This document shows positions 20,016 to 58,987 of a DNA stretch of 64,000 nucleotides, piece by piece (the stretch's first letter is position 1; every line of letters begins with the position of its first letter). Under the pieces are notes generated by a model. The model was not told the origin of the DNA and made no database searches. It saw only the letters and a program-made list of their open reading frames with translations. Made by a program: the position numbers and the translations under genes. Source of the DNA: Candidatus Zixiibacteriota bacterium (GTDB lineage: Bacteria; Zixibacteria; MSB-5A5; GN15; FEB-12). The stretch covers positions 186,001 through 250,000 of the forward strand of contig JACZXB010000001.1 of assembly GCA_022571845.1 (NCBI GenBank). The letters are read 5' to 3'.

Positions 20016-22730
20016 TCAGCACTGCGGAGGAGGCGGACCTCCACGGAATATCTTGTCAACCAGAAAAGTTAAATCAAGAATGTCAGCCGGTGAGCCATCC
20101 GCGTTAACGTCCGACTCATCAGGACATCCGCCTGGATTACCGCTGCCACGGAATATGAAATCGACCAGGAAAACCAGGTCCAATATATTAGCATCGATGC
20201 CGTCGCCATTCAAATCACCCCGTATGCCATTGCAGCAGCAAGCATCTCCAACACCATCACCGTCCAGGTCCTCCTGGCCGGGATTATGGTTTACAGGACA
20301 ATTATCGCAACCGTCAGGAACTCCGTCGCCGTCACCGTCCTGCAAATCATCAAAGCCGGGACAAATATCACAGGCATCGGGAACTGTGTCACCGTCCGAA
20401 TCAAGATTGTCGTCTCCATTCGGACAGATGTCGCAATCATCACCGACGCCATCTCCATCAGAATCCAGCTGACCGGGGTTAAAGTTGAATGGGCAGTTGT
20501 CATCTGGGTCGCAAACGCCATCGCCGTCTGCGTCCGGGCATCCGGCAGTATCCGGGCAGATTACGTAAGCGTATTCTATGACTACAAATGGCTGCTCAAA
20601 GGGACACTCAGCCTCACCGTTTTGGTCTTCAAAATTGGCCAAGTCTGCCGTTAAGGGATAGTCGCTGACGATTTCGGCGATTACTCCCCCGCCAAGACAG
20701 CCGAATCCGGCAGCAGCAAGAGAATACTGGTCATGCTGAATTTGTCCATGCGGGCCGCTGATGTTAAAGGCATCGTTATGAACAGTCGCCCCATGTGCTG
20801 AACCTGCCGGAGGTTCACCCTCAAGAGCATCAAAGAAAGGATCAGAAATACAAATTTTGAAATCGGTAGTGCAGACTCCGGCTACAGTCACATAGTGGCC
20901 GCCTATACGACAGCAGTTGCCTCCGCCGAGGTCTGAATAAATCCCCAGCAGCAGAATTACATCGTAGCTCTGCAGAACTTCATCTCTAATAAGCGAGTAG
21001 GAAGGCCATTGGTAGAGTGAATCGTTATATTCCGCAGACAGACCTCTGGAAGCAATGTACTGTCTGGTGCCTGATACCAGGCTGTCAATATCAGTACCAA
21101 AGCCTACTCCAGGATTGTTAGTATTCATAAATATTGCCAGTTCATCTACCAGCGGCACAACATTCAGAGTATCATGATCATCCCAGGCCCCGTAGGCAGT
21201 GACCAAATCATAGCTGTCATTTGCGGGTGTTGAAGCAAACGGACGCGGGTCAATAGGATTCGGCTCGAACTTGGAGTCGAACCACCAGAGACAATTTGCT
21301 ACAGCAACAGGGCCGCAATGCGACCAATTGCCAGCGCCATCTGCCCAGTGAGCTGCCGCTTTCTGGTCAAAGTCTGGCATACCATTTGGTGCATAGTCCA
21401 GATACGGTGATTTGTGGTACTCACAGCAGCTGTCGGGAGTAACGCCCGGACAGCAGTGACCCAGATGGGCAGCCCAGATTGTCGAATCACCGGCATCGCT
21501 GGCAAAATTGCAGTTTAAATCATCACAAATTCGCCCACCTACGAAATCATTGGAAGTTACACACAGGTCACCATCGTTGTCCAGGAAGCGAGTTGCTAAT
21601 GACGCACAAAATTGGCCGTCAATAAACAGAGCCGCATCGCATAATGTGCAAACGTCAATGCCGGCATCAACAGTAAAGAAATGGGTACCGGTCAGGGGGT
21701 CACATGAATCCGAAAAGACCAGTGGCCAATCAGGCTCTTCATCGGGGCATGGTAAGGCGGGGCAAGCACCGAAATCCAGATAAGTCCCAATAGAATCACA
21801 GATTGGATTACCGCAGCTATCCTTCACTGTAACTTGGAAAACCACATCAGACTGCGGACAAATCAGCAGACAGGGGTCATATGTTGTGCTGTCACAGAAC
21901 GGCTGGCCCGGAGGGCATTCGCCGCCACCTTCACATGCAACAAATTCACACTGCATAAACATTGGAGTTTTAGGAGAACCCGCGTATGGCGGGTGGCTGT
22001 GATTAGCTTCACACCGCTGCGATGTAACAATCACACCTGTGCCATCATATGCGTAAAACAGACCGGCTGCATCGTCAGCTGTAATGGATCTACGTACTTC
22101 ACAGAATGTGAACGATGAAAACATGACTGGCCGATAGCCAAGAACTCCGTCATGATCTTCGTGCCCCAAAGATATCCAATGCCCAAATTCATGGGTGGCT
22201 ACACTTTGCATATCGTAGCAGTCTACCGGACAGGCCGTCGAATCCTGGTCTTTAAACCATGAGTAATCCTGGGAAAAGCAGATGTCTGCTTCAATTATGC
22301 AGCATTCGTCGAATGCTCCCGGGGTATTAATAAACCACCAGAAGGCAGTTGCCACAATACCCGGGGGCATGGGGCAAGTAGCCATTGAAACTACGTTTTG
22401 ACCGTCAAATGTACCAATGCAGAACCCCATCGGGTCAGCCAGGTCAGCTTCACAGCCACGATTACTTGTAGTTCCGCCGTAAACCAGTTGGAAAGCCGCC
22501 CCTTGGGCATTCCAGGAAGCAGCTGCGGCATTGACTACATCTATGAAACTTCGGGGATTATTACCGCAGACCGTATCCGGTTCCCCGGGATTTATACAGT
22601 AGATAATATCTGTTTCACAGCACCAGGCAGAGCTATTGTAATCAAAGGCCTGTGTCGAATTTACTGACAGCAGCCCGAGCAGAAATAACCCAGCCGCTGC
22701 CAGGAGAGAAAATCTTTTTGTATTCATCAT
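20016..22730 (-). CDS. Secreted double protease: matrixin domain plus C39-like peptidase, TSP3 and dockerin-like repeats
   Basis: 904 residues. Signal peptide 1-28; matrixin-like metalloprotease about 30-235 with zinc motif HEFGHWISLGH (H180, H184, H190; catalytic E181) and a possible Met-turn in RPVMFSS. A cysteine-rich linker is followed by a C39-like cysteine protease region: SHCGPVAVANCLWWFD near 470 and GGHYVTVAGV near 610 supply Cys and His. Thrombospondin type-3 repeats (about 730-835) bind calcium, and a two-repeat dockerin-like module ends in GGPPPPQC. AAGGAG precedes the start. Follows the small secreted protein by 20 nt; probably one transcript. Confidence 0.88.
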   Translation of the reverse strand: MMNTKRFSLLAAAGLFLLGLLSVNSTQAFDYNSSAWCCETDIIYCINPGEPDTVCGNNPRSFIDVVNAAAASWNAQGAAFQLVYGGTTSNRGCEADLADPMGFCIGTFDGQNVVSMATCPMPPGIVATAFWWFINTPGAFDECCIIEADICFSQDYSWFKDQDSTACPVDCYDMQSVATHEFGHWISLGHEDHDGVLGYRPVMFSSFTFCEVRRSITADDAAGLFYAYDGTGVIVTSQRCEANHSHPPYAGSPKTPMFMQCEFVACEGGGECPPGQPFCDSTTYDPCLLICPQSDVVFQVTVKDSCGNPICDSIGTYLDFGACPALPCPDEEPDWPLVFSDSCDPLTGTHFFTVDAGIDVCTLCDAALFIDGQFCASLATRFLDNDGDLCVTSNDFVGGRICDDLNCNFASDAGDSTIWAAHLGHCCPGVTPDSCCEYHKSPYLDYAPNGMPDFDQKAAAHWADGAGNWSHCGPVAVANCLWWFDSKFEPNPIDPRPFASTPANDSYDLVTAYGAWDDHDTLNVVPLVDELAIFMNTNNPGVGFGTDIDSLVSGTRQYIASRGLSAEYNDSLYQWPSYSLIRDEVLQSYDVILLLGIYSDLGGGNCCRIGGHYVTVAGVCTTDFKICISDPFFDALEGEPPAGSAHGATVHNDAFNISGPHGQIQHDQYSLAAAGFGCLGGGVIAEIVSDYPLTADLANFEDQNGEAECPFEQPFVVIEYAYVICPDTAGCPDADGDGVCDPDDNCPFNFNPGQLDSDGDGVGDDCDICPNGDDNLDSDGDTVPDACDICPGFDDLQDGDGDGVPDGCDNCPVNHNPGQEDLDGDGVGDACCCNGIRGDLNGDGIDANILDLVFLVDFIFRGSGNPGGCPDESDVNADGSPADILDLTFLVDKIFRGGPPPPQC

Positions 22731-29459: not shown

Positions 29460-30881
29460 TCAACATGGCGGAGGCGGCGGACCGCCGCGGAATATAACGT
29501 CCACTACATAGGTCAGGTCCAAAATATTGGATGGAATGCCGTCCGAGTTTACATCACTCTCTTCCGGGCAGGACCCCGGATCGCCGCTTCCCCTGAAAAT
29601 AAAGTCTACCAGAAATGTCAAATCGAGAATGTTAGCGTCGTCACCATCTGTATTCAGATCACCACGTATGCCAGTGCAACAAGGAGTGATGCCACACTGA
29701 CTGGGGACGCTATCGGGAACAATCTTATAAACGGCCCCGGAAAAATATGAGCAAACGTACAACTCTCCGTAATAATCCTCTCCATACGAGGAAATGGCCA
29801 CTGCTCCAAGGCCGAGTTCAGATTTCCTGTTGGTTGAATCTGTTATAGTTGTACCGTCATACCTGATTGACCAGGTATCACCGCTGCAAAAATCTCCGTA
29901 GAAATAGGTGCCGTAAAGATCCGGTATGGCGCAGCCACGGTATACATATCCACCTGTTACAGAGCACTTGTTCGGAATGCCGCCGTGAAAATACTGAGTG
30001 ATTGGGTCTGTCAAATCGGCCAACGTATCACAGCCGGTCGAAGGAATAAAACAATTGTTGCCTTCTTTTAAACGCCAGCCGTAGTTTTCCCCGCCGCTGC
30101 TCGAGTCGGGTTGAAAATCTATTTCTTCAATTAGGTTTTGCCCGACATCCCCGATATACATATCTCCGGTAGCTCTGTCGAATGAGAACCGCCAGGGATT
30201 TCTAAGACCCAGGGCCCATATTTCGGGTAAATAACTGGTATCACCTACAAAAGGATTATCTCCCGGGATTCCGTATGGTGAGCCTCCATCGACATCAATC
30301 CGAAGCATCTTCCCCAGGAGTTCCTTTTTGTTCTGAGCACGATTTCCTGGATCACCTCCGGCGCCACCATCGCCCATTCCTATATAGAGATAGCCATCAT
30401 TCGGGCCAAAGGCAATCATACCCCCATTATGATTTGAGAATGGCTGGTTAATCGTAATTATGTCAAAGCTACTGGAAACGTCTGCAGAGTCAGGGTTTCC
30501 ACTGACATTGTATCTTCTGGCCACAGTATTACCTGATGAATTGGTATAGTTGACAAAGAAACGGCCATTGGTTTGATAATCGGGGTGAAACGCCAGACCC
30601 AAAAGCCCTCGTTCGCTGCCGCTGCTTACCAGCGAACTGATATTAAGAAAAGGGTCCGGCAAGAGAGTGTCGTTTTTGACTAACCTGATTCTACCACCTT
30701 GTTCAACTATGAAGACTCTGGTACTATCACCCGGTGCGAAAGTCACCAGTAATGGCTTAGTCAAACCGGCCGCAAAAAGTTCAGTTTTTAGGGGCGTAGC
30801 AGAGTTCAATATCTCAGTGGTCCCCATAAGCACCAATGAAACTAAGATACAACTGAGAAATAAAGCAGATATTCTATTCAT
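29460..30881 (-). CDS. PQQ-dependent sugar dehydrogenase-like beta-propeller with dockerin-like tail
   Basis: 473 residues: signal peptide 1-27; a six-bladed glucose/sorbosone dehydrogenase propeller (about 30-395) with LLGLAFHPDYQTNGRFFVNY, the active-site-like NHNGGMIAFGP, GMGDGGAGGDPGNRAQ and EIWALGLRNPWRFSFDR; then a two-repeat dockerin-like module ending GGPPPPPC. Family members oxidise sugars with PQQ, but many homologues have unknown substrates and may not bind PQQ. The tail is nearly identical in plan to that of the matrixin and subtilisin. A good promoter lies upstream. Confidence 0.88.
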   Translation of the reverse strand: MNRISALFLSCILVSLVLMGTTEILNSATPLKTELFAAGLTKPLLVTFAPGDSTRVFIVEQGGRIRLVKNDTLLPDPFLNISSLVSSGSERGLLGLAFHPDYQTNGRFFVNYTNSSGNTVARRYNVSGNPDSADVSSSFDIITINQPFSNHNGGMIAFGPNDGYLYIGMGDGGAGGDPGNRAQNKKELLGKMLRIDVDGGSPYGIPGDNPFVGDTSYLPEIWALGLRNPWRFSFDRATGDMYIGDVGQNLIEEIDFQPDSSSGGENYGWRLKEGNNCFIPSTGCDTLADLTDPITQYFHGGIPNKCSVTGGYVYRGCAIPDLYGTYFYGDFCSGDTWSIRYDGTTITDSTNRKSELGLGAVAISSYGEDYYGELYVCSYFSGAVYKIVPDSVPSQCGITPCCTGIRGDLNTDGDDANILDLTFLVDFIFRGSGDPGSCPEESDVNSDGIPSNILDLTYVVDVIFRGGPPPPPC

Positions 30882-31892: not shown

Positions 31893-34800
31893 TTGAAATT
31901 AGGTAATTGTATTGCTGGAGCTCGATGTTCAGGGTTCAAGCTTTCAAAATCAATATTGACTTTTTTTGCCACTATATTTGTGGCATTTCTTGTGTCCGGT
32001 TCAGTTCTGGCAGATTCTCCCTGTGATACCACAAATGAAATAAATCATTATATTCTTGTTTTTGATACCGTAATATATGAGCCTCCCGGGACCTCACAAT
32101 GGGTTTACAATCTAACGTGGGATGGTACTCCACCGGCATTAAGTCATTTCATGATTGAATTGTGTACTCTTATAACCAATGCCAACCTGCTTGCGGTTGA
32201 ACCTGATTTCGGCTCAATTGGTCTTGACGGTTCCACTGGCCTGTATGGCATCAAATGGGATAATATTGAAAATTTTCCTGCTAACTCTGCGGTAACATTC
32301 AGCTTTACGCTTGATGATTCGTTACCCGTCGACCACACCCAGTTTGCCCCCAAGGCAGGTATAAACTCCAACATTGCCACTATTTGCGGGCCAACGCTCG
32401 ACTGCGAGGACCCGTGCGCAAATGATAATACTCCTCCAATTATAGTATGCCCAGCCGACATAACCGTCAGCAATGATCCCGGTCAATGCAGTGCTGTGGT
32501 TACTTATTCAGCCACCGCGAGTGATGACTGTTCAGCAGCCTCGATATCCTGCAGCCCGCCTTCCGGTTCTGTATTCCCGGTCGGCACGACAACAGTAACT
32601 TGCATAGCTACTGACGAGTCCGGTAATGCTGACACCTGCACATTTAATATTACAGTTAACGATACGGAAGCACCGTTAGCAACCTGTCCTGCCGACATAA
32701 CTATCAGCAATGATCCCGGTCAATGCAGTGCCGTTGTCACCTTTTCTGGATCCGTAACTGATAACTGTGCAGGAGCCTCGATATCATGCAGTCCTGCCTC
32801 CGGCTCTGTATTCCCGGTCGGCACGACAACAGTAACTTGTATCGCTACTGATCCTGCCGGTAATGCCGACACCTGTACATTTATCGTAACGGTCAATGAG
32901 ACTGAAGCACCAGTAATAACCTGTCCTACCGACATAACTGTCAGCAATGATCCCGGTCAATGCACTGCTGTGGTTACTTATTCAGTCAGCGCGACTGATA
33001 ACTGCTCAGAAACTTCAATATCCTGCAACCCGCCTTCCGGTTCTACATTCCCGGTCGGCACGACAACAGTAACTTGCATAGCTACTGACGTGTCCGATAA
33101 TGCTGACACCTGCACATTTGATATTACAGTTAACGATACCGAAGCACCGGTAGCAACCTGTCCGGCCGACATAACTGTCGGCAATGATCCCGGTCAATGC
33201 AGTGCCGTAGTCACCTTTTCTGGATCCGTAACTGATAACTGTGCAGGAGCTTCGATATCCTGCAGCCCTGCCTCCGGCTCTGTATTCCCGGTCGGCACGA
33301 CAACAGTAACTTGCATAGCTACTGACGAGTCCGGTAATGCTGACACCTGCACATTTGATATCACAGTTAACGATACTGAAGCACCGGTTTGCAGTGTTCC
33401 AAATGACACTACTATATTCCTTTGTGAGTCCGCCACAATTTGTATACCGATTTCAGCCACTGATAACTGCGACTCCAATCCAACGTGCGTGCTGGAACCC
33501 GGTTCGCCCGGCAGCATTGTCAACGGACAGTGGTGTTACACTACGTCAGGTAGTGAAACCCTTGAAGTAGAATTCCGATGCACCGATGATGGTGGCAACT
33601 TTTGTATTAGTACCTTTACCGTAATTGTAGACCCTCAATGTGACTTCTGTCGCACAAATATTATTATCGAGAAAACGAATAACACACCTCAAGGCAGATA
33701 CGAGAATGTGACAATTAGTATCGAGAATATGCCTGATTCCGGCATTGGCGGCTTCGACCTGCTGATTCAGTACGACCCATCAGCGTTAAGCCTTTCTACG
33801 GTTGAGCCGGGTGACTTTTTAGCCAACTGCGGTTGGGAGTATTTTGCCTACAGGCACGGTCCCACCGGCAATTGTGGCAATAATGCATGCCCGACTGGAA
33901 AAGTTCGCATTCTTGCCTTAGCGGAAACCAACAACGGCGCCATTCATCCGTCCTGTTTCTACAGTAATCCCGCCGAACTGGCTGTAATGACCTACTTAGT
34001 TACCAACGACAGAACATTTGAATGCCAGTACGTGCCCATCAGATTCTGCTGGTATGATTGCGGCGATAATACCTTATCTTCGAAAGCTGGAGACTCTCTG
34101 TATATCTCTCAGGCAGTATATTATTACTATGACGGCGTAATATGGAACGAAATTACAGACATTTCAGCAGAGTTCCCAAGTCTCAACGGCGCTAACTACA
34201 CCTGTGATATTGACCAGGGTGACGGCAAACCGAATCCGATCCGCTCTCTGTGCTTCTACAACGGCGGCGTCAGTATTGTCTGTGCTGAATCAATTGACGA
34301 CCGCGGAGATATCAACTTAAACGGTGTAGCAAATGAAGTCGCCGATGCTGTACTTCTTGGTAACTATTTCGTCTACGGTCTGTCAGTCTTCACTATAAAC
34401 CTTGAAGGACAAATAGCAGCTACGGACGTAAATGCAGATGGCACGGTTCTTTCTGTCGCTGATCTGGTTTATCTGATTAGAATAGTTATTGGAGATGCCT
34501 CAGCATACAGCAAGGTGGTTACCTCAGTAAATATTGATTTCTACCATTATTCAGACGGCCGTCTTGGGGTGGGTGAAAAAACCTCTATTGGAGCTGCCTA
34601 CGTGGTAGCTGAGGGCGAAGTCACGCCAATACTATTGGCCACAGAGATGGATATGAAATATCACTTTGACGGTTCTAATACACGCATTCTGGTATGGTCA
34701 GAATCTGGCAGCGGCTTTACCGGAGATTTCCTCCTGCTGGATGCCGATTTGATTTCTTTTGAATTAGCGACCGCTGAGGGTCAACCCGTCAGTTTGAACA

Positions 34801-35078
34801 CCTTGCCAACGACGTACGAACTCTTACAGAACTATCCCAACCCGTTTAACCCCGCTACGGTAATTAGTTTTACTTTGCCCGACGCTTCAGAGTACTCGTT
34901 GACAATTTATAACTTGAACGGTCAAGTAGTTAAAGAATTTGAAGGTGTGGCTAATTCTGCAGGAACTGTAGACCTGGAATGGCAGGCAGTTGATGTCGCC
35001 AGTGGCGTCTATTTCTACCGATTAGAAGCAAACTACGGCAGATATGTTGAAACGAAAAAGATGATTCTTTTGAAGTAA
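31893..35078 (+). CDS. Giant secreted HYR-repeat protein with cohesin-like, dockerin-like and T9SS sorting domains
   Basis: 1061 residues, TTG start 6 nt after GGAGG. Signal peptide to about 40; N-terminal beta domain (40-185); four HYR repeats (187-502); an HYR-like or Ig-like domain (503-585); a cohesin-like domain (about 588-720) with GIGGFDLLIQYDPSALSLST; a dockerin-like pair (DRGDINLNGVANEVADAVLL and DVNADGTVLSVADLVYLIRI); a further beta domain; and a C-terminal T9SS-type sorting module (ELLQNYPNPFNPATVISFTL to the end). HYR repeats are Ig-like adhesion modules. Likely a cell-surface adhesin or scaffold secreted by a type IX-like route. Confidence 0.85.
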   Translation: MKLGNCIAGARCSGFKLSKSILTFFATIFVAFLVSGSVLADSPCDTTNEINHYILVFDTVIYEPPGTSQWVYNLTWDGTPPALSHFMIELCTLITNANLLAVEPDFGSIGLDGSTGLYGIKWDNIENFPANSAVTFSFTLDDSLPVDHTQFAPKAGINSNIATICGPTLDCEDPCANDNTPPIIVCPADITVSNDPGQCSAVVTYSATASDDCSAASISCSPPSGSVFPVGTTTVTCIATDESGNADTCTFNITVNDTEAPLATCPADITISNDPGQCSAVVTFSGSVTDNCAGASISCSPASGSVFPVGTTTVTCIATDPAGNADTCTFIVTVNETEAPVITCPTDITVSNDPGQCTAVVTYSVSATDNCSETSISCNPPSGSTFPVGTTTVTCIATDVSDNADTCTFDITVNDTEAPVATCPADITVGNDPGQCSAVVTFSGSVTDNCAGASISCSPASGSVFPVGTTTVTCIATDESGNADTCTFDITVNDTEAPVCSVPNDTTIFLCESATICIPISATDNCDSNPTCVLEPGSPGSIVNGQWCYTTSGSETLEVEFRCTDDGGNFCISTFTVIVDPQCDFCRTNIIIEKTNNTPQGRYENVTISIENMPDSGIGGFDLLIQYDPSALSLSTVEPGDFLANCGWEYFAYRHGPTGNCGNNACPTGKVRILALAETNNGAIHPSCFYSNPAELAVMTYLVTNDRTFECQYVPIRFCWYDCGDNTLSSKAGDSLYISQAVYYYYDGVIWNEITDISAEFPSLNGANYTCDIDQGDGKPNPIRSLCFYNGGVSIVCAESIDDRGDINLNGVANEVADAVLLGNYFVYGLSVFTINLEGQIAATDVNADGTVLSVADLVYLIRIVIGDASAYSKVVTSVNIDFYHYSDGRLGVGEKTSIGAAYVVAEGEVTPILLATEMDMKYHFDGSNTRILVWSESGSGFTGDFLLLDADLISFELATAEGQPVSLNTLPTTYELLQNYPNPFNPATVISFTLPDASEYSLTIYNLNGQVVKEFEGVANSAGTVDLEWQAVDVASGVYFYRLEANYGRYVETKKMILLK
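32451..33398 (+). repeat. Four tandem 237-bp HYR-encoding repeats
   Basis: Units start at 32451, 32688, 32925 and 33162, exactly 237 bp (79 codons) each. Long stretches are identical in DNA, for example around NDPGQC and VFPVGTTTVTCIATD. Units 1 and 3 share VVTYS and PPSGS; units 2 and 4 share VVTFSGSVTDNCAGASISCS, so a 474-bp double unit was duplicated. Confidence 0.9.
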
Positions 35079-35995: not shown

Positions 35996-38900
35996 ATGAG
36001 AGCATCTACTATCATTTGTCTCTTACTACTAACATTTGCAGTATCAATTCCCGCATATTCTATTGACCTTGATTTTGCAGTGAAGTTAAAGCAGAGGGAT
36101 TTTGTGCCCGCTCCTGCGGTAAAACAGGTATTGGCACAAGAGTCTGCTCTACTCTTGGGCAAACACGTTTTTGTACAGTTTGACAGGCCGCTGACTGATG
36201 CGGACAGACAGTCTCTTGCTGCCGATGGTATGCAGCTGATAAGCTATATCCCCAATTTTACTTATACAGTTCATCTTGAAATTGAAATTGATGAATCATT
36301 TGCGAACCGGCATGGACTCAGGTGGCTTGGAGAAATATATCCTGATGACAAGATATCCCCATATATAACCGACATTGGCATTGCTGACTGGGCTCGCCGA
36401 GGTGGTGATCTGGTCGAATTTAAAATTGTGCTGCATGAAGATGAAGACCTGGACTATTGGGCGCGGGAATTTCAAAACCAGTTTGATGCCGACATTGTTG
36501 GACTGGCCCGCAGCATTAATACAGTTGAATTGATAGTACCGGAACTCTCCTATCTGCAAATATCTGAGATTGACGCAGTGATTTGGATAGAACAAGACGC
36601 GCCTCCTCCAGTAGAAGAAAACAATGTTGCCAGAGTTAACACTCGCGCCGAAGAGCTGCAGCAGGCTCCATACAATCTAACTGGTTTCGCAGTTACAGTA
36701 GCAGAATGGGATGGTGGCTCTGTCTTTGGTGCCCATACAGATTTGGCCGGAAGGGTTACCCTACGTGATGCGGCTGGTTTTAGCAGTCACGCCACGCACG
36801 TGGCAGGTACAATTCTGGGAACGGGCGCTGAACAGGGCGGGCTTTATGCCGGCATGGCGCCAGAGGCACGGTTGATTTCATACCTGTGGTGGTTTTCGAT
36901 TTCTGAAATGGAACAAGAGTACACGGACGCCATAGGCTTTTTGAATGCATCAATAGCTACAAATTCCTGGGGTTATGGTAGCCCTATAACCATTCCCGGC
37001 TGTGAAGGTGTATTGGGTAATTATTATACTGAAAATACAGCGATTGATAATATAGTCAGAGGTTCACAGGGTGCGCCGATTACAATATGCTGGTCAGCCG
37101 GCAACAGCCGCAACACCAGCCCCTCATCTTGCGGTTCCTTGGGTTTTACATATGGTACAATCGGCGCTCTGGCTACCGCCAAAAATATTGTAACAGTTGG
37201 AGCTATATCATCAGGCTCCAGCGCCATGACCAGTTTTTCATCGTGGGGACCGACAGACGACGGACGGCTCAAACCGGATGTCTGCGGCCCCGGCTGTAGC
37301 TTGCGAAGCTGCAATGTCGGCGGCGGCTACTGGAATGCCTGCGGAACTTCGATGTCATGCCCTGCAACAGCAGGTACTATTGCCTTGATACGAGAGGCGC
37401 TTATGAATTCCGGGCAGCCCTGGCCGGTACTGCCGTCAACAATCAAAGGAGTTCTGATAAATACTGCTGACGACCTCGGAAATACCGGTCCAGATTTCAG
37501 CTTTGGACATGGCCGGGTCAATGGTGTCGATGCTGTTGACAAAATAGTAATTGGTGAACCATCGTATGTAGAAAATCAGACAACGACCGGCACAGTTCAC
37601 ATTTATGATCTGACAGTGCCAAGCGGCGCTGAAAGGCTTAAAGTTACTCTGGTCTGGTCTGACCCGGGAGGACTGGGAATCGCCGGCAAAAATTTAATAA
37701 ATGACCTCGATTTGGAACTGGTCAACCCGTTTGCAAGCATTGAACTGCCATGGGTATTAGACCCGGACAATCCGGTTAATTTTGCGACCAAAGGAGTTGA
37801 TCGTCTAAATAACGTGGAGACTGTAGAAATAGAATCTCCCACACCGGGTCTTTGGAAAGCGCGTGTTACAGGTTTTAATATTCCGACGGGGCCTCAGCTC
37901 TATTCGCTGATATTCACGCCTGACAGCATCTATACTCCCGGAAATCTAGCCGCCCTGGCTGTCTTTGCCGAAGGTGACATAATCCAGGACCCGGGCGATA
38001 CGGTTCCAGTGCGATTTTGGGTTACCAATGTAGGAGCTGCAACCGATTCTGTTGACGTCCATATCGAAGACGATGCCGGCTGGCTTATAGAAGGCACCGT
38101 AGATTCAGTTGTTACTCTTTCCTCGTGGGACTCAGTTACTTTTGTTGTTAATGCTATCATCCCGGTCTCTGCCTTTGCTACTGACAAAACTACGATTACC
38201 TGTTTTGCAGTAAGTAATTTGGATTCTCAGGTAATTGCTCAAGCTTCTGTTGATGTTAATGTGAATGCATTTTACTCAATTTCTCTGATGGACTTGCCGG
38301 ATGATACAGTCGGATCACCCGATAGTTATGATTTTCCGGTCATAATTGAAAATTTGGGAAACGCCTATGATCAAGTTGTGGTCACTATTGATGATGATCT
38401 AGGCTGGGATATTCAACCTCCCTCGGCTGCACTCTCTATTCCGCCTTTGACAATAGACACGTTGTTTTTCACCATAAACGTTCCGGCAGAAGTTCCTCAT
38501 CTGACAGTAAATAACTTTACTGTCAACGGCCCAACTGCTGGTGGAGCCGGAGACACTACGACGTTTCAACTTACGGTGGATAATTTTTTTCAGCCTCCAA
38601 CATTGCTGACGCCTGTCAACCCGTCCTACAGCCAGAACCGCGTTCAAACCTTTACCTGGAGTGGTATCGGAGATAGTTATTCTCTGGTAATAGCCAATGA
38701 TTTTACAATGCAAAGTGTGCTGCATGAGTATTTTGGCATCGGAGATCAGAATTTTACTATGCCGGTAGCAGATTCTCTTGCAGACGGTATTTACTACTGG
38801 GGTGTCAGACAAATTATAGGAGCGGACTCATCTTCGCTTCAGGCCACCCCCTATACACTTGTTATAGACAATGTAGCGCCTGTCACGGTGGTACCAACGT

Positions 38901-39721
38901 CGCCGATTAACGGAACGTTCGTGCCCGCTAAAATCTTTTCCTTCTTTTATGACTATGGCTCGAAAGTTAGTCAGGGAGGTGAAAAATCTTCAGGTCTGGC
39001 CCCTGAATTTGGAAGAATTCAAATTTCACAGGACTCTCTTTTTGGTGGCGGAATTATCACCTATGAACCACTTCCGGACTTTGTATATACCATCCCTGAC
39101 ACTATCAACGAGGGACGCTGGTATTGGCGAGTAGAGCTGGTTGACTCTGCCGGCAATAATTCCGGCTACACCAGCCCGGCTACGTTTATCATGGATTCAG
39201 AAACGCCGGCAGTTCCAACTCAGCTATTGCCTGCAGATAATGCAGTTGAAGACCAGGATACTATTCTGTTTCGCTGGAGCTCACCGGCCCCTCCGACATA
39301 TGAAGTAGCACCGGAGTTTTACAGAATACAGTTTTCCGATAGTCCCCTTTTCTTCAGCATCCACTATACTCAGCAGGTATTTAGTGACAGCCTTGAACTG
39401 CCATCATCGCTTTTCCTTGAAAATGTAGAGTTCTATTGGAGAGTAAAAGCACAGGACTCAGCAGGCCATACATCGCTGTATCAGTCAGCTCCCTTCAACT
39501 TTATCTATGCACTCTTTCTCTGTGGTGATATTTCCGGAGACGGTGAAGGACCAAACATTCTTGATCTTACGTTTATGGTAGACTTCATATTCAGAGGAGG
39601 TCCGGCACCTAACCCCTTAACTTCAGGTGACGTTAACTGTGACGAAAATACAAACATACTCGACCTTACCTACATGGTAGACTTCATATTCAGAGGAGGT
39701 TCGACCCCCTGTTGTTTGTAG
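35996..39721 (+). CDS. Secreted S8 (subtilisin) serine protease with dockerin-like tail
   Basis: 1241 residues. Signal peptide 1-22; propeptide-like region to about 205; catalytic domain about 210-525 with Asp239 (AEWDGG), His265 (SSHATHVAGT), Asn370 (CWSAGN) and Ser452 (CGTSMSCPATAG), so the triad is complete. The His motif is HATH rather than HGTH. Then beta domains: P-like/CARDB-like (about 530-860) and fibronectin-like modules (to 1170), ending in two dockerin-like repeats (PNILDLTFMVDFIFRGG and TNILDLTYMVDFIFRGG) and a CCL terminus. Probably a surface-attached exoprotease. Confidence 0.93.
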   Translation: MRASTIICLLLLTFAVSIPAYSIDLDFAVKLKQRDFVPAPAVKQVLAQESALLLGKHVFVQFDRPLTDADRQSLAADGMQLISYIPNFTYTVHLEIEIDESFANRHGLRWLGEIYPDDKISPYITDIGIADWARRGGDLVEFKIVLHEDEDLDYWAREFQNQFDADIVGLARSINTVELIVPELSYLQISEIDAVIWIEQDAPPPVEENNVARVNTRAEELQQAPYNLTGFAVTVAEWDGGSVFGAHTDLAGRVTLRDAAGFSSHATHVAGTILGTGAEQGGLYAGMAPEARLISYLWWFSISEMEQEYTDAIGFLNASIATNSWGYGSPITIPGCEGVLGNYYTENTAIDNIVRGSQGAPITICWSAGNSRNTSPSSCGSLGFTYGTIGALATAKNIVTVGAISSGSSAMTSFSSWGPTDDGRLKPDVCGPGCSLRSCNVGGGYWNACGTSMSCPATAGTIALIREALMNSGQPWPVLPSTIKGVLINTADDLGNTGPDFSFGHGRVNGVDAVDKIVIGEPSYVENQTTTGTVHIYDLTVPSGAERLKVTLVWSDPGGLGIAGKNLINDLDLELVNPFASIELPWVLDPDNPVNFATKGVDRLNNVETVEIESPTPGLWKARVTGFNIPTGPQLYSLIFTPDSIYTPGNLAALAVFAEGDIIQDPGDTVPVRFWVTNVGAATDSVDVHIEDDAGWLIEGTVDSVVTLSSWDSVTFVVNAIIPVSAFATDKTTITCFAVSNLDSQVIAQASVDVNVNAFYSISLMDLPDDTVGSPDSYDFPVIIENLGNAYDQVVVTIDDDLGWDIQPPSAALSIPPLTIDTLFFTINVPAEVPHLTVNNFTVNGPTAGGAGDTTTFQLTVDNFFQPPTLLTPVNPSYSQNRVQTFTWSGIGDSYSLVIANDFTMQSVLHEYFGIGDQNFTMPVADSLADGIYYWGVRQIIGADSSSLQATPYTLVIDNVAPVTVVPTSPINGTFVPAKIFSFFYDYGSKVSQGGEKSSGLAPEFGRIQISQDSLFGGGIITYEPLPDFVYTIPDTINEGRWYWRVELVDSAGNNSGYTSPATFIMDSETPAVPTQLLPADNAVEDQDTILFRWSSPAPPTYEVAPEFYRIQFSDSPLFFSIHYTQQVFSDSLELPSSLFLENVEFYWRVKAQDSAGHTSLYQSAPFNFIYALFLCGDISGDGEGPNILDLTFMVDFIFRGGPAPNPLTSGDVNCDENTNILDLTYMVDFIFRGGSTPCCL

Positions 39722-41917: not shown

Positions 41918-44578
41918 ATGAATCTTAGAACAATAACCACACTTTTGGTTCTGGCTTTATTTTTGTCGTTTTCTGCTCAGAGCGTAGAGGCCAGAGGTGT
42001 CAAAGGCGCCGGACAAAAGTCGAAAGGCGAAAACGGAAAATCAGATAAAGACTCTGATAAAGGCAAGTCCAAAGCAAAGCCCTTCGCCAAGCTTATCAAA
42101 GACAAAGTAAAGATCGAGGGGTTGTTTACCTTTTATCATGACACCGTAGATAATTCTGTTTTGATGGCCATAAACCCGGAGCATTTTGGGCCGATTTATC
42201 TCTTTGGTTCAGCACGTTCAACTGGCGATGGCACCTTCTATGACGCCGGTTACCCCAGCAGAACTTTTCCACTTTACTTCAAAAAGGTCGGCAAGAAAAT
42301 CCTGGTAATGGAAAAAAACCTGCGCGTCAGAGCAGACACTTCAAGTACTATGTTCAAAGCTGTCGCGGCCGGTATTTCTGACCATCTCTTTACCTCGCTG
42401 GACATAAAATCTAAACCGGAAGACTCAACTGAAGCTGTCCTGGTCGATCCCTCAACAATGTTTATTACTGATTACAATAATACCGGTTATTATCTGGGGA
42501 AGGCCAAGAAAGGCTTCAGCTTTGACAGTAAGAACAGCTATTACAAACAACTCAAATCTTTCGAACAAAATAGCGAAATTGATGTAATGCTTCACTATAA
42601 GTCCAGCCAGCCCAACTCCGGAGTTACACTTCAGAGTGGCAAAAGTTTTTATCATCAGTATCATTACTCCATTTCTGCTATTCCGGAAACCGACTACGTT
42701 CCCAGACTGTCTGATGACAGAATCGGGCATTTCGAAACGATGTTTTTAGACTATACAGAGCTTGACCACCAATCACCATATGTCCGATATGTCCAGCGCT
42801 GGGACTTAAAGAAGAAGAATCCCGATGCTCGTATTTCCGAGCCGGTCACACCAATCGTCTATTGGATCGAAAATACGGTACCGCCTGAATATCGTGACGC
42901 CCTGGCTGAAGGTATCGAATTCTGGAATCCTGCCTTTGAAAAAATTGGTTTCAGAAACGCAGTTGTAGCCAAACAGATGCCTGATACTGCCAGCTGGGAT
43001 CCGCTCGATACTCGTTATAGTGTTATTCGATGGATTTATTCCCCTCGTGTTTATGCCGTTGGACCCAGCCGCGCCAATCCGTTTACCGGACAGATTTATG
43101 ATGCTGATATCGGTATGTCTGCAGACTTTGTTAGAAACATGTTTATCAATATGGATGAATATATCGGACCGGTATCATTTGACGGACGCCTGATGAAAGA
43201 AGAAGAGTTTAATCCGATGGAACATGAGTCTGAAAGAATCTGTACGTTTGCTACAGAACTTTCTGAACAAGCCGGATTCGGTCTGGCATATCTCTACTCA
43301 AGTATAGGTGATATGGCCGATAAGGATTCGCTGACAAAAGAATACGTGCACGCTTATTTGGTTGAAGTAATCGCGCACGAAGTTGGTCATACTTTAGGCT
43401 TTAGACATAACTACAAGGCCTCGACCATCTACAGCCTCGAACAAATAAACGACCGGGAATTTACTGCCAAAAATAGTACTATCGGAACAGTAATGGAATA
43501 CGCACCGGTCAATATTGCCGGTAAAGGACAAACTCAAGGCGAGTTTTTTTCCTCCACCCCCGGTCCTTATGACTATTGGATTATAGAGTATTCTTATTCT
43601 GATTTTGGAGCTGAAAAGCCTGAAGATGAAACCGAGCAGCTAAAGCAGATTGCTTCCCGTTCGGCTGAAAAAAACCTGGCCTATTGTACAGACTATGATT
43701 TGTACAATGCTTATGCGGTAGACCCCTATGCCAACACCTGGGATCTGGGCGATGACCCGCTGGCCTACAGCGAACTTCAGGTAAAGTTGATTCGAGATTT
43801 GTGGAGCAATACTTTGAGCAAATTTGAAAAGCCGGGTGTCAGTTACGAAAAAATACGCAGGGTTTTTTCAAGAGGTATGCGCTACTATAGATATAGCGCT
43901 CTCTATGCGGCAAGATATATAGGCGGCTTGATTCATAATAAAAACTATGTTGGCGCCAAAGGCGGTACAGTTCCGTTCACGCCTGTTTCGGCTTCAGAGC
44001 AAAGACGTGCGATGAATTTCCTACGTGACAAAGTATTTGCGGCGGATGCATTTGACGTTTCATCTGATATGCTTAACAGACTGCAGCATACCAGAAAGCA
44101 GAACTTTAGAACATCATTGTATGGATCGCCAATAGCTTACCCATGGCATCAACATATATTGTCAATTCAAAATACGGCGCTTAATATTCTTTACAACCCG
44201 CACACTTTGGGACGCTTGGTTAATAATCTTGACCGTTATAAAAAGGGCGAAGAGCGCTACACCATGCATGATATGTTCAGAGATACTCGTCGTGCGATTT
44301 GGGGCGAAATAACCGGTCCGTCAAACGTGAATAGTCACAGACGTCAATTACAATTGGCTCATCTAACCAGGATTGCACGTATTTATTTGAGCGGCAGTTT
44401 TATGTATCCTGCCGATGCCCGCACTCTGGCGGCAAATGACCTTGATATTCTGGAAAGCGCCGCTAAAAAGGCTGCCAATTCGGCTGCTATCAACGACATG
44501 AGCAAAGCTCATTTCAAAGAAGTTCTCAGACAAATTAAAGCAGCCAAGAATTCAGAAAAAGAATACTCGAAATTCTAA
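41918..44578 (+). CDS. Secreted zinc metalloprotease of the DUF5117/DUF5118 metzincin family
   Basis: 886 residues. Signal peptide 1-25, then a Lys/Ser/Asp-rich linker (about 28-58), DUF5118/DUF5117-like regions (IKDKVKIEGLFTFYHDTVDN onward) and a metzincin domain with HEVGHTLGFRH (H487, E488, H491, H497) and Met-turn GTVMEYAPVN. The C-terminal helical part (about 600-880) is typical of this large-metalloprotease family common in Bacteroidota and relatives. All zinc ligands are intact, so activity is expected; substrates unknown. AAGGAG precedes the ATG. Single-gene unit. Confidence 0.93.
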   Translation: MNLRTITTLLVLALFLSFSAQSVEARGVKGAGQKSKGENGKSDKDSDKGKSKAKPFAKLIKDKVKIEGLFTFYHDTVDNSVLMAINPEHFGPIYLFGSARSTGDGTFYDAGYPSRTFPLYFKKVGKKILVMEKNLRVRADTSSTMFKAVAAGISDHLFTSLDIKSKPEDSTEAVLVDPSTMFITDYNNTGYYLGKAKKGFSFDSKNSYYKQLKSFEQNSEIDVMLHYKSSQPNSGVTLQSGKSFYHQYHYSISAIPETDYVPRLSDDRIGHFETMFLDYTELDHQSPYVRYVQRWDLKKKNPDARISEPVTPIVYWIENTVPPEYRDALAEGIEFWNPAFEKIGFRNAVVAKQMPDTASWDPLDTRYSVIRWIYSPRVYAVGPSRANPFTGQIYDADIGMSADFVRNMFINMDEYIGPVSFDGRLMKEEEFNPMEHESERICTFATELSEQAGFGLAYLYSSIGDMADKDSLTKEYVHAYLVEVIAHEVGHTLGFRHNYKASTIYSLEQINDREFTAKNSTIGTVMEYAPVNIAGKGQTQGEFFSSTPGPYDYWIIEYSYSDFGAEKPEDETEQLKQIASRSAEKNLAYCTDYDLYNAYAVDPYANTWDLGDDPLAYSELQVKLIRDLWSNTLSKFEKPGVSYEKIRRVFSRGMRYYRYSALYAARYIGGLIHNKNYVGAKGGTVPFTPVSASEQRRAMNFLRDKVFAADAFDVSSDMLNRLQHTRKQNFRTSLYGSPIAYPWHQHILSIQNTALNILYNPHTLGRLVNNLDRYKKGEERYTMHDMFRDTRRAIWGEITGPSNVNSHRRQLQLAHLTRIARIYLSGSFMYPADARTLAANDLDILESAAKKAANSAAINDMSKAHFKEVLRQIKAAKNSEKEYSKF

Positions 44579-53430: not shown

Positions 53431-53658
53431 GCAGACAGCTGGATTCTGGCTTTGAATTTGCAAAACACAAAGTAGCATTTGCGTCCAAATAATTTCTGTT
53501 GAAAATGCTTGATTGACAAAGCGCTTTTTACTAATTTCTTGACTTATATTAAAATAGAGCTTGGAGTTAGCCTTATTTCTTACCGGGCTCATTAAACTAA
53601 ATTGGACCCTGATTCGTTAATGATTGAGAATCGAACTAATTGAGTGAGTGTTAAATTT

Positions 53659-56280
53659 ATGTCAAAAACATTTCTTGCAACAGTTGCCTTGTATCTGTGT
53701 GCTGTGGTTTTGCTGCTGACTCCCATTTTACAACCCCGTACACTGTATCTTAAAGATGAGGAAGGGAAGTTCAAAAGCAGCAGTCAGCTGGCCGAAAGTC
53801 CTGCCCATTGCATAGCTTCACATAGAATTGGAAATATGACATTAGCGATTTCAAACAACGGAACATTCGGAACCTTTTACGCCCAGTCGGCTGCCTTGGA
53901 CTGTTTTACCACGAGAGGGATTGTCTTTGGCTGCGAGGTCCCTAAAAATGGCGGTGTTGAATATCTATTTGGCGGCTCTTTTTGGATTGGCGCTATTGTG
54001 GGAAGAGACACGTTGGTTACTGTCGGACATGATGGCTGGCAGAGTAACCAGGAATTTTCTCCGGACGAAGTCTTTCAAGGTAATCCCAAAGCAATGAAGA
54101 AGAGATCTATCATTGACCCAACCGTTGACAGCTTGTTCAGGGATGCAATCTCCGAAGAAGACTTTATAGCCTGGTACACTGATACCGCCAAGGGTTCCGG
54201 AACCTACGACGGGCTTGATCCCTTTGGCCACAGGCCTATCGGAATTGAAGTAACTCAGAAATCTTTCGCCTGGTCGTATGAATACGCCGAAGATTTTATT
54301 CTCTTTGATTACCGCATAACCAACATAGGCATCAAATCAATCCGCGATGTCTATATGGGTATATACATTGATGCTGATGTTGGTGCAAATCCGACTCCGC
54401 ATATTGATGACCTGTGTGGTTACACCCACACTTTTTTGGATACATTTTTGACTTGTGAATATGTAGTTGACGCAAATATCGCTTGGATAACGGATAACAA
54501 CGGCGACCTTAACGAAACGTATCCGGCGGCCCCTGGTGTTACTGGAACGAGAATTGTCAGAACCCCGGCAGAGTCTCTAATAGTTTCATTTAACTGGTGG
54601 ATTGGAAACGGTATCGCCGCCAGAGATTTTGGCCCCCGCAAGAGACCGACCGCAAATAAGCCATTCAGAGATTATAGTACGGGAGGGTTAGGTACACCCG
54701 AGGGGGACAGAAACAAATACTATGCTCTCAGTAACGGTGAATTCGACTACGACCAGGCTTATACAGCCTCAATAACAGCATTGGACAGTATCTGGCTGCA
54801 GCCAAACCAAGCTTTGGCTGGAGAATTTGCCGATGGCTTCGATACCAGATATCTATTGTCTTTTGGTCCGTTCGATATTGACCCCGGTGAAGAATTGCCT
54901 ATTTCATTTGCCTATGTATCCAGCGACAATTTCCATGTAGATCCAAATAACATCAATAACCTTCCCGGTGACCCCAATGTTTACTACCAAGGACTGAATT
55001 TCAAGGATTTTCTGGATAATGCACGCTGGGCAGGCTGGATTTATGATAATCCCGGTGTAGATACAGACAGCAATGGCTACGCTGGTGAATTCATAATCTG
55101 TGTAGTGGACAGTTCCATTACCGGGATAGACAGCACTGAATCTCCCTACGACACATTTTATGCTAAAGTGGAAACTTTATTTGTTACTGGTGACGGTGTA
55201 CCGGATTTTAGAGGGGCCTCTCCTCCGCCTGCACCGGCTCTTTTTATCGAGCCAAGTGTCGGGACAATCAAGGTTCGTTTCAATGGCTATCGTTCTGAGA
55301 CCACCAAGGATCCATTTTCCAGAGTTGTTGATTTTGAGGGCTACAGAATCTATATCGCCCGTGACGACCGCGCTACCAGCTATAGTCGGCTGGTATCTTA
55401 TGACAGAGAAGATTTCAATAAATGGACTTTCAACCCGAATGCTTTTCCCCCCACTTTTCAGCTACTAAGCAATCCGTTCACTTATGACGAACTGTTTAAC
55501 TTGTATGCCTTTGGCGACTCTTCATTTGACCCGTTAGACTATACTCGCAACAGACTGTTTAAGCATCCTCTCTTCCCGATTGACTCCCAGTTCTATTTCG
55601 AACCGCAGGGCTTCAATGTTTCAAGTCTGACTGACCCTGACGGCATTCGTAAAACATATCCCACTCAGCCATATCCAAGCACTCTGAACCTGGACTCTTT
55701 GCCCGATGCGGAGAAAACTCCCGAGGGATTACCCCGCTACTTTGAATATTATTATACCGTAAGTAATTTGCTGCCTACTGTGCCCTACTGGATTAGCGTT
55801 ACGGCCTTTGATTTCGGTTCACCCAGTTCGGGTTTGCCCCCGCTGGAAACCAGCGTCACATTCAACACGGCCAACGCTTACCCTCTTGAAACTGCCGATG
55901 GGGTGGCACAGCAGAATCTCAAAGTTTTTGTATACCCCAACCCCTATCGAATCGACCAGAATTACCGTGATAGTGGTTTTGAAGGACTGGATACTCTGGG
56001 ACAGCGCTTACCAAGAGATCAGAGACCCGATACCCGGGCCCGACGCATCCACTTTGCCAATCTTCCAGCAAGATGTACTATCAATATTTACTCTTTGGAT
56101 GGTGATTTAGTCCGGGAAATCATTCATGACAAAGACCTCTCTGACCCCAACTCTACACATGACACCTGGGACCTCATAACCCGCAACACACAATCTGTAG
56201 TTTCCGGCTTGTATTACTGGACTGTAGAAAACACGGAAACCGGTGATGTACAAATTGGTAAACTTGTTATTATTCTGTGA
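53659..56280 (+). CDS. Large secreted protein with C-terminal sorting module, tandem paralogue 1
   Basis: About 873 residues. Signal-like N-terminus (FLATVALYLCAVVLLLTPIL). RIGNMTLAISNNGTFGTFYA and PKNGGVEYLFGGSFWIGAIV open a beta-rich body; GVDTDSNGYAGE is a calcium-loop-like DxDxNG motif; GVPDFRGASPPPAPALFIEP starts a fibronectin-like region, and FVYPNPYRIDQNYRDSGFEG to the end is a FlgD/T9SS-like sorting module. The frame could begin at a GTG at 53644; I prefer this ATG, though neither has a good ribosome binding site. First of three tandem paralogues, probably one operon. Function unknown; surface or extracellular by the signals. Confidence 0.8.
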   Translation: MSKTFLATVALYLCAVVLLLTPILQPRTLYLKDEEGKFKSSSQLAESPAHCIASHRIGNMTLAISNNGTFGTFYAQSAALDCFTTRGIVFGCEVPKNGGVEYLFGGSFWIGAIVGRDTLVTVGHDGWQSNQEFSPDEVFQGNPKAMKKRSIIDPTVDSLFRDAISEEDFIAWYTDTAKGSGTYDGLDPFGHRPIGIEVTQKSFAWSYEYAEDFILFDYRITNIGIKSIRDVYMGIYIDADVGANPTPHIDDLCGYTHTFLDTFLTCEYVVDANIAWITDNNGDLNETYPAAPGVTGTRIVRTPAESLIVSFNWWIGNGIAARDFGPRKRPTANKPFRDYSTGGLGTPEGDRNKYYALSNGEFDYDQAYTASITALDSIWLQPNQALAGEFADGFDTRYLLSFGPFDIDPGEELPISFAYVSSDNFHVDPNNINNLPGDPNVYYQGLNFKDFLDNARWAGWIYDNPGVDTDSNGYAGEFIICVVDSSITGIDSTESPYDTFYAKVETLFVTGDGVPDFRGASPPPAPALFIEPSVGTIKVRFNGYRSETTKDPFSRVVDFEGYRIYIARDDRATSYSRLVSYDREDFNKWTFNPNAFPPTFQLLSNPFTYDELFNLYAFGDSSFDPLDYTRNRLFKHPLFPIDSQFYFEPQGFNVSSLTDPDGIRKTYPTQPYPSTLNLDSLPDAEKTPEGLPRYFEYYYTVSNLLPTVPYWISVTAFDFGSPSSGLPPLETSVTFNTANAYPLETADGVAQQNLKVFVYPNPYRIDQNYRDSGFEGLDTLGQRLPRDQRPDTRARRIHFANLPARCTINIYSLDGDLVREIIHDKDLSDPNSTHDTWDLITRNTQSVVSGLYYWTVENTETGDVQIGKLVIIL

Positions 56281-56329
56281 GTGAGCATGACCAAAGGACT
56301 AAACAACTAAAGCAAAAGGAAACCGAAAT

Positions 56330-58978: not shown

Positions 58979-58987
58979 CTTTTAACT

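Follow-up and report, generated by a model that had tools for sequence, protein, structure and literature searches.

The genome of this Candidatus Zixiibacteriota bacterium encodes cohesin and dockerin modules whose reality is practically certain, and they probably constitute a non-cellulosomal cohesin-dockerin docking system that operates at the cell surface and is spread over the whole genome. What we observe is the modules themselves, the folds predicted for them, where in each protein they lie and how they are spread over the phylum; binding, surface location and the pairing of cohesins with dockerins are inferred from these. In the proposed model, a type IX secretion system (T9SS) tail would anchor small exported proteins with one cohesin on the outside of the cell, ~65 other exported proteins that carry a near-symmetric type-I dockerin in place of the sorting tail would plug into these T9SS-anchored cohesins, and any protein that has both modules would serve as an adaptor. 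The window, by which we mean the whole stretch of 64,000 nucleotides that was analysed, would be one part of this genome-wide surface system, in which a C-terminal unit of the type described below would end surface proteins across the phylum.

The window encodes a protein with HYR repeats (the HYR protein), which has the following features:

31893..35078, + strand: HYR protein, 1061 aa, TTG start, with a signal peptide, ~130 aa, four HYR repeats, a cohesin, a dockerin-like pair, an X domain and a T9SS tail
32424..33392, + strand: four HYR repeats, residues ~178-500 (PF02494, E 1.3e-55; the end of the last repeat is an estimate)
33639..34277, + strand: enlarged cohesin domain, approximately residues 583-795 (PF00963; hhalign; Foldseek)
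34302..34502, + strand: internal divergent dockerin pair, residues 804-870 (Ca-ligand positions kept; hhalign, alignment A2)
34506..34817, + strand: X domain, residues 872-975 (beta-rich, conserved in the 42-sequence alignment)
34833..35075, + strand: T9SS sorting tail, residues 981-1061 (PF18962, E 5e-9; TIGR04183, E 6e-12)

The motif GIGGFDLLIQYDPSALSLST corresponds to residues 617-636. PF00963 matched the protein at E 5e-5 and 24.0 bits in the protein scan, against a cut-off of 24.1, and the cohesin scored 28.5 bits, above this cut-off, in a six-frame search; comparison with the Zixibacteria mono-cohesin profile A3 by hhalign gave prob 98 and E 3e-14. The C-terminal 479 residues were aligned with 41 relatives from the phylum (alignment A2, 42 sequences), and the best match of this profile in the PDB by sequence was a cohesin (E 0.002). 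An AlphaFold2 (AF2) model was then built from A2 (mean pLDDT 84.8, pTM 0.50). In a Foldseek search with this model the 31 best PDB matches all contained a cohesin, and the top match was 3ul4, the OlpA cohesin with its dockerin (E 5.8e-9, target TM 0.79), showing that the predicted domain has the cohesin jelly-roll fold. The sequence-only reading of this region had described the segment as cohesin-like and had made the claim depend on a fold check; the fold came out as cohesin-like (best Foldseek E 6e-9), and not as the different fold that would have spoken against it. The same reading had assigned the protein a divergent dockerin-like pair of its own. This pair was recovered at residues 804-870: it reached 12.8-16.3 bits in Pfam, below the cut-off, matched the terminal dockerin profile with prob 96 and E 4e-9 in hhalign, and its D/N columns are invariant in A2. 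The X domain gave no family match and consists of beta strands in the AF2 model. The HYR protein and the mono-cohesins described below are predicted T9SS cargo by their tails (TIGR04183, E 6e-12 and 4e-10), and SprA is encoded in the genome (E 6e-123).

Three enzymes encoded in the window end in dockerins:

35996..39721, + strand: subtilase (S8) with Ig-like domains and a C-terminal dockerin (PF00082, E 7e-34)
39521..39718, + strand: type-I dockerin at the end of the subtilase (AF2 pLDDT 88; Foldseek prob 1.00; profile A1 117.6 bits, the sequence itself being in A1)
29460..30881, - strand: glucose/sorbosone dehydrogenase-type (GSDH) propeller with a C-terminal dockerin (PF07995, E 8e-40)
29463..29663, - strand: dockerin at the end of the GSDH protein (A1 113.9 bits, the sequence itself being in A1)
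20016..22730, - strand: matrixin-like metalloprotease with a TSP3-like repeat and a C-terminal dockerin (PF00413, E 3e-5, just above the cut-off)
20019..20219, - strand: dockerin at the end of the matrixin-like protease (A1 110.8 bits, the sequence itself being in A1)

All three tails consist of a paired D-x-N-x-D-G...NILDLTFLVDFIFRGG module, and taken singly each falls below the Pfam dockerin cut-off. For the subtilase tail, the AF2 model (pLDDT 88) retrieved almost only dockerins in Foldseek, with prob 1.00 and TM 0.7-0.8; the E value was only 0.003 because the module is small. When the terminal tails were treated as a family (profile A1), solved type-I dockerins were found in the PDB with a best E of 2.4e-8, and the invariant positions D6, D18, D41, N43 and D53 of A1 delineate two Ca-binding loop-helix repeats with D/N ligands. 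Thus, the three enzymes within 12 kb that had been reported to end in dockerin-like modules do carry type-I dockerins by profile, the subtilase tail also by fold. One of them had been called a double protease; Pfam recognised one protease in it (the matrixin, PF00413, E 3e-5), but not the second. Elsewhere in the window, the gene at 41918-44578, near those of the dockerin-tailed enzymes, encodes an exported Met-zincin (DUF4953/DUF5117) protease that has neither a dockerin nor a T9SS tail. Three paralogous genes in tandem at 53644-61618 encode exported proteins of 876-882 aa, whose common end, YPNPYR...SGLYYW...GKLVII, resembles T9SS or FlgD-like tails.

A total of 65 full terminal dockerin pairs were found across the genome, which is 98.8% complete at 2.75 Mb, and 18 places reach the Pfam PF00404 cut-off. 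The dockerin stood at the extreme C-terminus in 31 of 31 whole proteins inspected, and none of these 31 carried the T9SS tail motif. A simple rule detected a signal-peptide-like start in 29 of 30 dockerin-tailed proteins, of which at least two calls (L035 and L063) look false, so that these proteins mostly carry a signal peptide. Their other domains, determined for about half of the set, include subtilases, an M6-type protease, the matrixin-like protease and the GSDH propeller, and further FG-GAP, LVIVD, SBBP and PQQ-like propellers, CHRD domains and thrombospondin-3 repeats, with many propellers of the FG-GAP and LVIVD types. No glycoside hydrolase (GH) or carbohydrate-binding module (CBM) family, as a cellulosome would have, was present among the ~30 dockerin-tailed proteins scanned (about half of the set).

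The terminal dockerins are very uniform in sequence. Repeats 1 and 2 share on average 65% identity over 22 aligned positions, which is as expected for dual-mode dockerins, judging from sequence. A Cys lies near the C-terminus in 30 of 31 tails, and 29 of 31 also have a Cys between the repeats (alignment A4); the two near-constant residues may form a disulfide that closes the dockerin. The Ser-Thr and Lys-Arg positions of the C. thermocellum dockerin, which we take to be those that read the cohesin, are aligned with Ile-Leu and Val-Asp in both repeats of the Zixibacteria tails, and therefore the C. thermocellum specificity is not transferable. One terminal-type dockerin (L042, G000 C16:25772-25969) was seen within an open frame of 8656 aa that encodes a giant surface protein.

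Set against the 65 terminal dockerins are about a dozen cohesins, some of which are partial or weak. In two mono-cohesins, a single cohesin lies between signal peptide and T9SS tail (295 aa on C4 and 276 aa on C1). Both modules occur together in a 288-aa protein with a signal peptide, a cohesin and a terminal dockerin (C14; L126:1264-2127, - strand), whose gene lies between one resembling the gene of transcription termination factor Rho and one resembling that of a flagellar rod protein, and in a 790-aa subtilase with a PKD-like domain, a cohesin and a terminal dockerin (L127:1288-3423, - strand; G000 C14 ~92715-93347). In this subtilase, enzyme, socket and plug are combined in one chain. A large cohesin protein is encoded in a frame of 1872 aa on C4, and four proteins of the genome, the HYR protein among them, have the full cohesin-dockerin-X-T9SS unit. 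No multi-cohesin scaffoldin, the hallmark looked for in a cellulosome, was found in the genome, each of its cohesin proteins giving a single match. At L133:1249-2130 (- strand), a lipoprotein-like protein with the lipobox ...GVLCGC has a marginal cohesin-like domain (E 0.006) and is possibly a lipid-anchored socket.

We examined how the modules are distributed across the phylum. Of 132 genomes, 126 were detected by both the mono-cohesin and the dockerin-tail profile, and the remaining six by neither. These six belong to families f6 and f17 and form one branch on the SprA tree; their co-absence is therefore one evolutionary event and not six, and a count of this perfect co-occurrence over 132 genomes as six independent cases was rejected. 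For G122, a member of this branch, Pfam gave two cohesin matches. T9SS tails and SprA were present in 11 of 11 genomes tested, and the f6/f17 genomes have T9SS. The unit at the C-terminus of the HYR protein is likewise widespread. Its parts follow each other in the same order in the 42 aligned sequences (~50% identity): the cohesin, which at ~215 aa is bigger than usual, then the internal dockerin, the X domain and the T9SS tail. The unit was found in 120 of 132 phylum genomes, mostly in several copies and often within frames of 2000-3600 aa or in a standard protein of ~860 aa. An example of the latter is L116:337-2934 (+ strand), with an N-terminal beta domain, Ig-like domains and cohesin-dockerin-X-T9SS; this standard protein is found again and again in the phylum, its signal peptide staying similar, and may be a major surface protein.

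What the HYR cohesin itself binds has to be weighed separately from the system as a whole. The sequence-only reading had the HYR protein gather the three neighbouring enzymes, and three dockerin-tailed genes do lie within ~12 kb of one cohesin gene. Such a dedicated scaffold is nevertheless very improbable, since at least three dockerin genes within 12.5 kb are found at ~5% of random places in the genome, for which reason co-localisation was rejected as a sign of a functional cluster, and no dockerin gene was found near the other module-bearing genes checked. Dockerin genes tend to lie close to one another (of 50 gaps between neighbours, 17 are below 6 kb, with 6.6 expected), and the three near the HYR gene therefore need no special explanation. 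Also, unrelated genes on both strands separate the HYR gene from the enzyme genes, and only a single cohesin was found in the HYR protein by profiles. The claim thus gives way to ~65 dockerins and about a dozen cohesins genome-wide, and the HYR protein is probably not a dedicated receptor of its three neighbours. A different picture is that the HYR cohesin and the adjoining dockerin-like pair form a fixed intramolecular stalk or cap beside the T9SS tail, with no partner in trans. This concerns the HYR unit only and is compatible with docking elsewhere. The constant order in 42 sequences, the occurrence of the unit in 120 genomes and the length of its frames agree with it, as do the relatives G025 and G027, which gave no match to the unit among 13 scored candidates per genome but have at least 40 dockerin tails each and have kept other cohesins. 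Against it stand the model pTM of only 0.50, which gives no defined domain packing, and the base of 13 scored candidates per genome for the absence from G025 and G027. We consider the two sides close to balance, tipping slightly against an intramolecular role. Because the arrangement of the unit is fixed, its own dockerin may pack on its cohesin in cis, as a model; the fixed arrangement, together with the two genomes that lack the unit yet have other cohesins, suggests that the HYR cohesin is not the general receptor. In the docking model, it would be one possible receptor for dockerin tails.

The docking model as such competes with the view that a secretion or anchoring machine reads the terminal dockerin-like pair as a tag for sorting or processing and that the cohesins are independent of it; cohesin-like sandwiches could be plain structural domains. 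In favour of a tag, the tails are very uniform, have a C-terminal Cys in 30 of 31 cases, and in all 31 proteins inspected stood strictly at the C-terminus with no T9SS motif. A tag would also fit an inverse relation to T9SS tails, whose median density per Mb (first-look candidates) rises from 14 in the families rich in dockerins, through 34 in f15/f16, the families of intermediate dockerin number, to 53 in those without dockerins, f6 and f17. This inverse relation, clear between the groups, is expected from docking as well, however, and over 19 families the rank correlation, with dockerins counted among the matches listed, was not significant (rho -0.35, p 0.14), partly because the dockerin numbers of the richest genomes enter as lower bounds of ~45 each. 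Moreover, both the fold and the sequence of the tails are those of cohesin-binding dockerins, and cohesins occur in the same 126 genomes, which makes a sorting tag unlikely. We therefore prefer docking, and the densities suggest that dockerin tails stand in for T9SS tails. A further step, possible if on balance doubtful, is that in most of the phylum the dockerin has largely replaced the T9SS sorting tail as the C-terminal label, and that a few T9SS-anchored single-cohesin receptors display much of the secretome by non-covalent docking. If this is true, anchoring would be outsourced from each exported protein to a shared socket.

Cohesin-dockerin pairs are known chiefly from cellulosomes, and many lineages have cohesins and dockerins of a non-cellulosomal kind. 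A survey by Peer et al. in 2009 (cited in PMC9012536) reportedly recorded dockerins and cohesins outside cellulose degraders. Such scattered non-cellulosomal finds are poorly explained. Here, an uncultured phylum has dockerins in cellulosome-like numbers, no sign of cellulose degradation, and cohesins tied to T9SS. If the binding is true, diderm bacteria would have a general way of displaying proteins at the surface non-covalently, and the cohesin-dockerin toolbox would gain what may be a new class of specificity, with concrete receptor and ligand modules.

With the cellulosomal type-I pairs of C. thermocellum (CipA/OlpA) and relatives, the Zixibacteria modules share the cohesin fold, the paired Ca-loop dockerin fold with near-symmetric repeats, C-terminal dockerins on enzymes and surface-anchored cohesins (as in OlpA/OlpC). 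In contrast to the cellulosome, no multi-cohesin scaffoldin was found in the Zixibacteria genome and no GH or CBM among the dockerin proteins scanned, the anchor is a T9SS tail, and other residues occupy the recognition positions. Clostridium perfringens NagJ and hyaluronidase likewise are exported non-cellulosomal enzymes with cohesin and dockerin modules; cohesin-dockerin pairing in this species involves few partners, in a Gram-positive organism without T9SS. The NagJ/hyaluronidase modules (PDB 2jh2, 2ozn) were among the weak PDB matches. ANME archaea, which encode proteins with up to five cohesins as well as S-layer/dockerin proteins (PMC9012536), again have dockerins and cohesins outside cellulose degraders.

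The nearest system is that of the Cloacimonadota 'Ca. Stygibacter', for which a surface complex has been inferred: S8 and C25 peptidases there bear a dockerin at the C-terminus, and the conserved C-terminal domain of a cohesin protein serves surface attachment, with T9SS literature cited (PMC8542988). The sequence-only reading had held that a surface complex of this kind would be new, which is only partly right, given that a T9SS-anchored cohesin/dockerin complex with such peptidases was already inferred there. No paper linking Zixibacteria or Zixiibacteriota with dockerins was found in the open-licence literature searched. In 'Ca. Stygibacter', a few dockerin enzymes go with a scaffoldin of 3755 aa that contains CBMs and cohesins in tandem (PMC8542988), whereas the Zixibacteria have single-cohesin anchors, ~65 dockerin proteins and conservation throughout the phylum. 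What is new relative to the known systems is the combination of single-cohesin T9SS anchors, secretome-wide dockerin tails, a phylum-wide cohesin-dockerin-X-T9SS unit and unusual recognition residues.
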